Assembly (NCBI GenBank): GCA_025056735.1
Contig: JANWVR010000118.1
Coordinates: 1-64,000 of the forward strand
Length of the DNA: 64,000 nt
Reading direction: 5' to 3'
DNA from: Saprospiraceae bacterium
Lineage (GTDB): Bacteria; Bacteroidota; Bacteroidia; Chitinophagales; Saprospiraceae
Of the stretch, positions 3,281-33,561 are shown piece by piece (the stretch's first letter is position 1; each line of letters starts with the position of its first letter). The position numbers and the translations under genes were made by a program. The notes under the pieces are model-generated. The model made no database searches. It saw only the letters and a list, made by a program, of their open reading frames with translations, and was not told the DNA's origin.

Positions 3281-4405
3281 ATGGTAAAAGAAAGTACATC
3301 TTTTCCGTATATTACCTACGGCGCGCGCGTAAGCGCAGAGTCCGTGGCATCGTTGCTGGAGCATGCCTTAGACCGATTGATGCAAAGCGACGAGCGCCCA
3401 ACGCCTATCTGTATTTGGGGCTTGCACGGCATAGGCAAAACGGAGCTGGTGCGCGATGTGGCGCGAGCGCGCGGCTGCGAATTTGTCTATCTTGCACCCG
3501 CTCAGTTTGAGGAAATGGGTGACTTAGTAGGTATGCCGCAGGTGACTGCCGGAGAGAACGGCGAGATGCTCACCCGTTTTGCCCCGCCCGAATGGGTGCC
3601 GCGCCGCCCTGGGCCGGGTATCTTGCTCTTAGACGATGTCAACCGCGCCGACGACCGAATCCTGCGCGGCATCATGCAGCTGTTTCAAAACTATGGCTTA
3701 GTATCCTGGACACTGCCGCCCGGATGGCTCATCGTCTGCACAGCCAACCCCGACGGCGGCGATTACTCCGTCACCACGCTCGACGAGGCCATGCTCACCC
3801 GCATGCTGCACGTAACGATGACCTTCGACCCGCACGTGTGGGCGCGCTGGGCCGAACGCAACGACATTGACCCGCGAGGTATCCACTTTGTACTGGCTTA
3901 CCCGGAACTCATCAATGGCCGCCGAACAACACCGCGCTCACTAGTACAGTTCTTCAACAGCCTACGCGGTATCGAAGACTTGCGCGAAAACATCCCTATC
4001 GTCCGCCTGCTGGCCGAAGCAGCCTTAGATACGGAAACGGCACAGGCGTTTCTGTCCTTCGTTCAATTGAACATGGACAAACTGCCCACGCCCGACGACA
4101 TCCTAATGACTACTCCCTTCGATGGGGTGGCGCGCCGTTTAGAGCGCCTGATAGACGAAGGGCAAACAAAGCGCTTAGACATCCTTTCCGTCCTGGTAAC
4201 ACGCCTTATCAACTACCTGTTGGCGCGCCAGCAGCCTCTGTCGGAAGCAGAGCTGAATAACCTGCGCGCCTTCCTGCTCCTGCCGTTGCTGCCCAACGAC
4301 CTGCGCCTATCTATGGCGCAAGAGCTGGCTCAGGCCAAACGCCCTGACCTATCGAAAATCTATGCTGACCCCCAAATCGGCCAGCTCTTGCTGCGCAAAA
4401 TGTAA
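3281..4405 (+). CDS. MoxR/AAA_5-type AAA+ ATPase
   Basis: Walker A-like GLHGIGKTEL, Walker B ILLLDDVNRAD, sensor-like WLIVCTANPDGGDY. Confidence 0.8.
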   Translation: MVKESTSFPYITYGARVSAESVASLLEHALDRLMQSDERPTPICIWGLHGIGKTELVRDVARARGCEFVYLAPAQFEEMGDLVGMPQVTAGENGEMLTRFAPPEWVPRRPGPGILLLDDVNRADDRILRGIMQLFQNYGLVSWTLPPGWLIVCTANPDGGDYSVTTLDEAMLTRMLHVTMTFDPHVWARWAERNDIDPRGIHFVLAYPELINGRRTTPRSLVQFFNSLRGIEDLRENIPIVRLLAEAALDTETAQAFLSFVQLNMDKLPTPDDILMTTPFDGVARRLERLIDEGQTKRLDILSVLVTRLINYLLARQQPLSEAELNNLRAFLLLPLLPNDLRLSMAQELAQAKRPDLSKIYADPQIGQLLLRKM

Positions 4406-30827: not shown

Positions 30828-30980
30828 ACGAAGGCTCTTTGAGGCGCAAAGAACGGGCAAACGCGCGGAAAGGCAGGGCAGAAGCGATGAGGTCGGGAAT
30901 ACGGGCGCGCGGCAGACGAGCTCGCGTTTGGTCAGCTATCTTCGGGGGCAAGGTGGCTGGCCGGGTGTGTTCCTTCAGAG

Positions 30981-31175
30981 TCAGGCTGCTATGTTCAGAA
31001 GAAACCAACTTAAAATAAACAGGAGAATGGCCAGGATAACCATCACAATCAGACAGAATTGAATAATCTTTTTCAGAAAATGCCCTAACGCCTTAACTAT
31101 TATTATTACAAAGACCAGCACACCAAAGGCAAGGGCTGCCATGAGCAGAATACTGATGATTTGTAGAGCAGTCAT
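30981..31175 (-). CDS. Small membrane protein
   Basis: 64 aa with two hydrophobic segments; coding call moderate. Confidence 0.4.
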   Translation of the reverse strand: MTALQIISILLMAALAFGVLVFVIIIVKALGHFLKKIIQFCLIVMVILAILLFILSWFLLNIAA

Positions 31176-31608
31176 AAGAAGGCATTTTTTGATGAAAGGG
31201 TTTTGATAATGAGGCTGTTATCTGTTTGGGCAGGCAAAAGACTCCCCCCTCGCCGCCTGGGGGCAGCTTGCTCAGGTAAAAATTCTTGGGATTAGCTCCG
31301 CGGCAAGGGCTGGCTGGAGTTGGCTCAGTCGCTCCTGAGGAAGGCAAGGATTGTCAACCAGCCGTCTAAACTATGCACAAATTTGGCTATGCCGATGAAA
31401 ACTTACAATACCTTAAACACTAAAGAAGGTCTATTTTACTCCTTCGGCACGGATAAAAAACTATAAAATTTCATCTCGAAACCATTTAAAACCTATGCGG
31501 GATGTTTCAGCGTTTTTATGAAATGGCTGTAGGATTTTTCCATAAAAATTCTGGATAAATTCCGGGTCAAACGAAATTTGGCGCTGAAACTTAATTGTGC
31601 CAAAAAGT

Positions 31609-33561
31609 ATGATTATCCAGCGTAGAACATTTTTGGCTCTTTATGAAAAGATCGAGGCTAAGTTGCAAGAGCTCTCTCCGCCCATATACATCAGGCGGGC
31701 AGATGGCAGGCAGGATACAGTAAGCCTTGGGACGGTTTGGAATCCGTGGGAGGATGCCGACGCGAATCATGCTGCCTGCGTGATCTTGCGAGCATTAGAA
31801 AGGGATGGGTATCTGCCGGAGGGCCAGAACTTTCAATTTGGCAGATTTCTTTACAACAAATACCATGAGCTCCAGAAGAACCCCGGAGCGCAGCAGGTCA
31901 TGGTAAGGGATGAGGAGTATGTTCAACTTTTGTGTAAGTATTTGGGCTGCAATAGCTTAGAAGACTTTGTGCGGAAGTGCGAGAAGGAAGAGGTGCTTCG
32001 CTGGCCTCCGGAATGGATGCCTCAGAACGGGGATGGTTTCACCTATTATATCGGTACCTACTTCTCTTTTCGCAGTTATCGGGTGAATAAGTTCCTGTTG
32101 GGTATTCGTCCCATAAAAGAGCATGGGGCGCCAGTAGATTGTTGGGTATGGGGGTTTCACACCAACGAGCAGATGCACGACGCCGGATTTACACCCGACG
32201 AGCCGGTTAATTCTCCGGTACTCAAAGGCGACGCTGTTGTTCTGGGGCGCTATCTCCATGTTCGGGTGAATGCAGACCCTGCCGAGGCGCGCGAGGTGGC
32301 TTATCCGTTGCAGATGAACCTGATAGGGATTTGCGAGGACGTTATGGGCCGATTTTCGCTAACTCAATCAGTCATCCCGTGCACGTTGCAGACGGTGTCG
32401 CTTTTTGGCTACTTGATTGCTCTGGAGGCATATCTGCTTCGATGCACAACGGAGGAAGCGCGGGCCTTGAAGGCCGATCCTGTAACTTATCGGAGTCCTC
32501 ATCTTGGGGTGGCTGCCATTACCCAGGAGCAGGAGCGGTGTCTGCACTTATACTACATGCTCCAGCGCCGGAATTTCCGGGTCAAGTTGGCGCCCAATGT
32601 TTTTCGGTTGCGCGATTTGGAGTACCGCGGCAATCGTGTGCTCCGTTACGCGAACATGTTGGCGGGTACCTATCGGGTGTGGAATCTGGGGCTTAAACGG
32701 GGCGTTGTGATACAGAGCAAGCTGGTCATTAGTGAGGAGACGCCTTTCAGGGCATTGTTTTATCCTTATTTACCGCAAGAAACGGTCCATTTTGAGGACT
32801 TGGAAGAGCAGCTGGCTGTCATGACCCTCAGCCACGAGGTGCGGCCGCACCATTTGAGCTTTACTACCTATGCCCGCTCCAGGCTGACCTTAGTCAGCAT
32901 GGCTATTTTTGATATCCAGGAGATGGGCAGCCGCGGTTGGGCGGAGGGCATGTTTATATCAACCGGCTACGACTCTAAAGGCATTGTTGGCGGCTATGCC
33001 GTCATGTGCAGGGTAAAAAAAGGCGAAGCATGCGAACCGCGAAGAATGGAGCGCGAAGAGGCAGAGCGGTATGCGCAGGATTTGGGTATTGCAGATATGT
33101 ATAAAGGCTTGCGGCAGTTGTGGAAGCGCAAGCTGTGGAAGCCGAAGACGAATACTCGTTTAGGCTGTTATGGCGTGCTTCGTCGGCCAGATAGTGGCGC
33201 CATTTTGACAGTATTCAGGACAGAAGGCCCGTATTCAGGCGCCCTTGATTTGCCTGGAGGCTTGGTCGAGTTCGGCGAGACGCCCGAGATGGCGCTTCGC
33301 CGTCTGTTCGAGCGAGAGACGGGTCTTCGAGTAAGGGATATTCAACTCTTGGGCAACGAGTCGCATCAGCAAATATGGCGTCGTAAGGACGGCATTGAAG
33401 AAAACATGCACCACATTGGCCTCATTTACCAGGTGGCGGTAGATGACTGGGAGGGAGACCTCCCATTCCCTTATCTACACTGGACAGGCGCTGGCACTCC
33501 TGCCGCCCAGCTCTCCCCCTTTGCCGCCCGCGTTCTTTACGGGCCGGTGGCATCAGAGTAG
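31609..33561 (+). CDS. Uncharacterised N-terminal region fused to a C-terminal Nudix-fold domain with degenerate Nudix box
   Basis: ATG at 31609 (GTG 31597 also possible). C-terminus RLGCYGVLRRPDSGAILTVFRTEGPYSGALDLPGGLVEFGETPEMALRRLFERETGL is Nudix-like; residues 1 to about 510 not recognised. Confidence 0.85.
   Translation: MIIQRRTFLALYEKIEAKLQELSPPIYIRRADGRQDTVSLGTVWNPWEDADANHAACVILRALERDGYLPEGQNFQFGRFLYNKYHELQKNPGAQQVMVRDEEYVQLLCKYLGCNSLEDFVRKCEKEEVLRWPPEWMPQNGDGFTYYIGTYFSFRSYRVNKFLLGIRPIKEHGAPVDCWVWGFHTNEQMHDAGFTPDEPVNSPVLKGDAVVLGRYLHVRVNADPAEAREVAYPLQMNLIGICEDVMGRFSLTQSVIPCTLQTVSLFGYLIALEAYLLRCTTEEARALKADPVTYRSPHLGVAAITQEQERCLHLYYMLQRRNFRVKLAPNVFRLRDLEYRGNRVLRYANMLAGTYRVWNLGLKRGVVIQSKLVISEETPFRALFYPYLPQETVHFEDLEEQLAVMTLSHEVRPHHLSFTTYARSRLTLVSMAIFDIQEMGSRGWAEGMFISTGYDSKGIVGGYAVMCRVKKGEACEPRRMEREEAERYAQDLGIADMYKGLRQLWKRKLWKPKTNTRLGCYGVLRRPDSGAILTVFRTEGPYSGALDLPGGLVEFGETPEMALRRLFERETGLRVRDIQLLGNESHQQIWRRKDGIEENMHHIGLIYQVAVDDWEGDLPFPYLHWTGAGTPAAQLSPFAARVLYGPVASE

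Follow-up and report, generated by a model that had tools for sequence, protein, structure and literature searches.

Nudix-fold domains serve as enzymes and as ligand binders. Known active Nudix hydrolases strictly conserve the motif GX5EX7REUXEEXGU, whereas in the regulators NrtR and AraR, including those of Bacteroidetes, the motif is impaired and the domain serves ligand binding (PMC4666351). The mycobacterial MsNrtR showed no ADP-ribose pyrophosphohydrolase activity, and ADP-ribose still served it as a ligand (PMC6800001). The protein described here resembles these regulators in carrying a degenerate Nudix motif inside a multi-domain protein, an arrangement also found in Bacteroidota (PMC4666351, PMC6800001). 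However, a winged HTH follows the Nudix domain in NrtR and AraR, whereas our protein ends with the Nudix domain and gave no HTH match, and its main part consists of an unrelated N-terminal domain and a beta module.

Three other groups of described proteins bear on this locus. The MutT-type hydrolases (1mut, 7syc) have the fold in common with our protein, as well as some of the Nudix box; our protein differs from them in lacking Glu53 and Glu56 and in bearing a large N-terminal extension. The tandem calycin/lipocalin-like proteins, represented by DUF3598 (2o62), BFA1 (5yvf), kievitone hydratase (7a0t) and Phm7, are built of two consecutive eight-stranded units, as is predicted for our protein; here, however, there is no sequence match, the TM-scores are low and the module is fused to the N-terminal domain and the Nudix domain. 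Finally, the likeness to the Swarozyc/DUF4062 TIR-like NADases lies in a relative, L053, with a probable DUF4062-like N-terminus; our protein has no TIR-like domain, and the auxiliary domain of Swarozyc is an HTH/winged fold, not a beta module (PMC13174449).

A selected gene in a stable chromosomal position

The window is a stretch of 64,000 nucleotides of a Saprospiraceae contig (JANWVR010000118.1). The features of the locus are as follows:

30861..31608, no strand: divergent intergenic region between thrA (- strand) and the gene (+ strand), 748 bp, A+T-richer (G+C 0.45), no Rfam match
31609..33561, + strand: whole gene, 650-aa protein (ORF call, relatives, selection)
31609..32010, + strand: N-terminal helical domain, residues 1-134 (model pLDDT about 80-92, alignment, searches)
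32020..33060, + strand: beta module, residues 138-484 (strand pattern, model, Foldseek; no Pfam or PDB sequence match)
33061..33147, + strand: conserved linker, residues 485-513 (motif GLRxLWKxKLWK, present also in L004/L005, which have no Nudix domain)
33148..33558, + strand: Nudix-fold domain, residues 514-650 (PF00293 at 4.6e-12, Foldseek)
33256..33327, + strand: degenerate Nudix box, residues 550-573, GGLVEFGETPEMALRRLFERETGL (alignment with MutT)

The start codon is the ATG at 31609; an alternative in-frame GTG at 31597 would add 4 residues. A homologue with 60% identity (L002) occupies the same place on the chromosome, and between the two genes the beta module shows a dN/dS of about 0.13; the ORF is therefore a genuine gene that is subject to purifying selection. 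Note that synonymous sites are near saturation in this comparison (pS 0.71, pN 0.24). The gene was not found in most genomes of the genus, as would be the case for a decaying or spurious ORF, but this explanation is hardly conceivable: it is refuted by the dN/dS value and by relatives whose frames are open and 46-60% identical across the same domains.

As the preliminary description had noted, this is a lone ORF among housekeeping genes, the flanking products being ThrA, YbeY, a glycosyltransferase, an ECF sigma factor and CorC. The gene lies between thrA and the glycosyltransferase gene, and the order is the same in L002. In the close relatives G002 and G011, whose glycosyltransferases are 85% and 78% identical, the order is retained and the gene is missing; the empty sites of L097 and L098 held no gene remnant. 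The gene is thus a presence/absence polymorphism within a stable locus. The Rfam search identified no RNA elements near the gene. Elsewhere in the window, the product of positions 3281-4405 carries a P-loop-like motif (GLHGIGKTELV) close to its N-terminal end and gave no PADLOC match.

Profile searches, with the window genome counted, placed the family in at least 11 of 42 genomes of the genus, in at least 14 of 199 and at least 15 of 348 genomes of the Saprospiraceae in separate searches, and in at least 3 of 396 genomes of the phylum, all of these being lower bounds owing to the first-look filter. The relatives occur sporadically among Saprospiraceae and seldom in other Bacteroidota. Plasmid records gave matches to the Nudix part only, and phage records gave no match.

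A Nudix-fold domain with a degenerate box, acquired once

The only Pfam match of the protein was NUDIX (PF00293), on residues 522-619 (E 4.6e-12). In agreement with this, Foldseek with the whole model returned MutT-type structures (E 8.7e-7), the PDB sequence matches fell almost exclusively on this region, the NCBIfam matches were all of Nudix type, over the Nudix region and under the curated cut-offs, and PADLOC gave a weak match of this part to PDC-S07. The initial observation that only a C-terminal Nudix fold can be recognised was thus borne out.

The motif is not intact, with RLFERETGL standing where REUXEEXGU is expected. When the box was aligned with that of MutT, Glu53 was found replaced by Leu566 and Glu56 by Arg569, with Glu57 retained as Glu570. 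These losses bear on whether the protein is an active Nudix hydrolase gated by the upstream ligand-binding module. The fold is clear, the GG (including G551), E557, R565, E570 and G572 are retained, and the domain is as well conserved as the remaining protein in the comparison with L002, all of which would suit an enzyme. However, the position of Glu53 is lost in all four Nudix-bearing members (Leu in our protein and in L002, Arg in L003, Cys in L049), and our protein and L002 have additionally lost Glu56. L003 and L049 retain the EE pair, L003 with Asn in place of the motif Gly. Against the strict conservation of the full motif in known active enzymes (PMC4666351), we consider an active, gated hydrolase unlikely. 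Since the key glutamates are missing from the box, nucleotide hydrolysis by this protein is unlikely; and since this loss follows the pattern of NrtR, AraR and MsNrtR, the domain more likely binds than hydrolyses, by analogy with those regulators. If this is right, proteins of this kind should not carry a Nudix hydrolase annotation.

The Nudix tail is present in four members only: our protein, L002/L024, L003/L025 (cut by a contig end) and L049/L026. These form one clade (support 100/100), which requires one change, compared to 3.8 in shuffles, showing that the tail was acquired once in this lineage. In L004/L005 the linker leads into a different tail, about 117 residues long. Note that the record of L026 (JAKLJF010000022.1) is titled as a Thermoanaerobaculia MAG; its contig is in G259, of the same genus as the window, and the title looks wrong.

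The N-terminal domain, the beta module and its partners

Residues 1-510 gave no family above the cut-offs of Pfam, NCBIfam or PADLOC and no PDB sequence match, in keeping with the original view that this part belongs to no nameable family; an assignment to a known family was consequently dropped. The region had been treated as a single block of about 510 residues, which does not hold: it comprises the N-terminal domain (1-134), the beta module (138-484) and the linker. The N-terminal domain represents an undescribed family, common to other Saprospiraceae proteins and to some from other Bacteroidota; it had no Pfam or PDB match, and none of the known DNA-binding families fits it.

An AlphaFold model of the whole protein, built from a seven-row alignment of relatives, was confident for both the N-terminal helical domain (residues 1-124 in the model) and the Nudix domain, and resolved the beta module into two groups of about eight antiparallel strands each (145-279 and 353-468). 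The AlphaFold and Foldseek analysis of the unassigned region, which the preliminary description had proposed, was carried out on the separately folded beta module (138-484; pLDDT 65, pTM 0.54) because the Nudix domain dominated the Foldseek matches when the complete model was searched. The best PDB match was DUF3598 2o62 (E 1.4e-4, prob 0.95), followed by BFA1 5yvf and kievitone hydratase 7a0t and then by 3rwx, a putative outer membrane protein of Bacteroides, with Phm7-type pericyclases and the tick lipocalin LTBP1 ranking lower. We take most of these to be calycin or lipocalin-like barrel proteins, several of them tandem. The module, nearest as it is to tandem barrels, matched with TM-scores of about 0.2 and an rmsd near 19, on a model of pLDDT 65; the low scores probably reflect the comparison of two barrels as one rigid body, together with a rough model. 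No significant sequence repeat was seen between the two halves. On this model of low to medium confidence, the beta module probably forms tandem calycin/lipocalin-like double barrels.

Several of the Foldseek matches are themselves tandem-barrel enzymes, and our protein could be one too, comparable to the pericyclases or kievitone hydratase, its Nudix domain being an accessory. We regard this as very unlikely: the neighbours include no biosynthetic genes, the module is found with sensor-type partners, and across the family it has almost no invariant residues.

The borders of the module are held while its N-terminal partner differs, as seen in L053, L082 and L055. Such fixed borders with changing partners are typical of sensors, which is why we read the module as one. 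In L053 (L053:5242-6855, G260, same genus), the module stands behind a different N-terminus, whose best PDB match, a weak one, was the KpSwz TIR/DUF4062 structure (10wc; E 0.17). In this alignment Glu89 of the queried stretch falls on the Ala of the construct, by residue count the E97A position, E97 being the catalytic position of the Swarozyc TIR/DUF4062 protein (PMC13174449). The L053 N-terminus is thus, judging from the alignment, a probable DUF4062/TIR-like NADase domain. No further fusions of the L053 type were found among 180 genomes. L053 itself may be an undescribed defence or signalling protein. The N-terminus of L082 gave weak HTH matches (HTH_3, E 0.048) and possibly carries an HTH, and in L055 (L055:4721-5824, G110) a helix between the N-terminal domain and the beta part, judged by eye, is probably transmembrane.

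Ligand sensing, defence and gene arrangement

The likeness of the beta module to ligand-binding tandem barrels, together with its different partner domains, led us to a tentative reading, which may well be correct, of the protein as a cytoplasmic stand-alone ligand sensor of the one-component type, combining the beta-module barrels with a pseudo-Nudix binder. The two barrels would bind a molecule that is small and probably hydrophobic; the Nudix-fold domain at the C-terminus would be an additional ligand-binding domain that does not hydrolyse, comparable to those of NrtR and AraR; and the N-terminal helical domain would provide output or oligomerisation, possibly DNA binding. The earlier suggestion of ligand sensing or nucleotide signalling thereby finds partial support: sensing is strengthened by the tandem-barrel likeness and the partner swaps, nucleotide signalling is a conjecture, and hydrolysis is unlikely, the box glutamates having been lost. 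If right, this reading names a domain family missing from present libraries (beta module plus N-terminal domain), with the modular partners typical of sensors.

A more specific version makes the beta module an undescribed Bacteroidota small-molecule sensor placed on NAD-linked partners: the probable DUF4062-like NADase of L053 and, in our protein, an inactive Nudix domain that possibly reads ADP-ribose. This is rather improbable; if true, the two would together make up a novel family of proteins for NAD/ADP-ribose signalling gated by ligands.

The preliminary description had also suggested a defence or stress role, to be checked by looking for defence genes beside the homologues. PADLOC had no match among 10 window proteins (8 neighbours and 2 more distant ones) or among 10 neighbours of relatives, and the position is housekeeping and syntenic, so that a defence or stress role for the gene is not supported. 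It is accordingly quite unlikely that the protein acts in phage defence or abortive infection, sensing infection and acting through nucleotide metabolism. Such a protein would fit the sporadic distribution and the empty site in close relatives, and L053 offers a probable DUF4062/TIR-like domain in which a Glu aligns with the catalytic one of Swarozyc (PMC13174449). However, a TIR-like domain with this Glu is probable in L053 only and missing from our protein, so the sole link to defence is indirect; the PADLOC match concerns the generic Nudix part alone, and our protein lacks any effector whose active site is intact.

With regard to the sensor reading, family members were divergent to their upstream neighbour in 17 of 21 cases, compared to 63 of 136 background genes (p = 0.003), as determined with crude ORF calls and with the other genes of the same loci as background. 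L049, which shares its strand with the neighbouring gene, was dropped from this count, which becomes 17 of 22 when it is included. Divergent orientation is usual for lone regulators, though not specific to them. In seven genomes from seven genera (L018, L019, L020, L022, L109, L110 and L112) the divergent neighbour is a TonB-dependent receptor gene, and L057 has the same arrangement; the receptor identity was read from the sequences, without a family search. These relatives, which have the same N-terminal domain, and the divergent TonB-dependent-receptor-like gene are candidate regulator-transporter pairs.

Finally, L063 and L056 lie near genes resembling conjugation coupling proteins, and in L063 a serine recombinase is close by as well; some family members may therefore travel on mobile elements.
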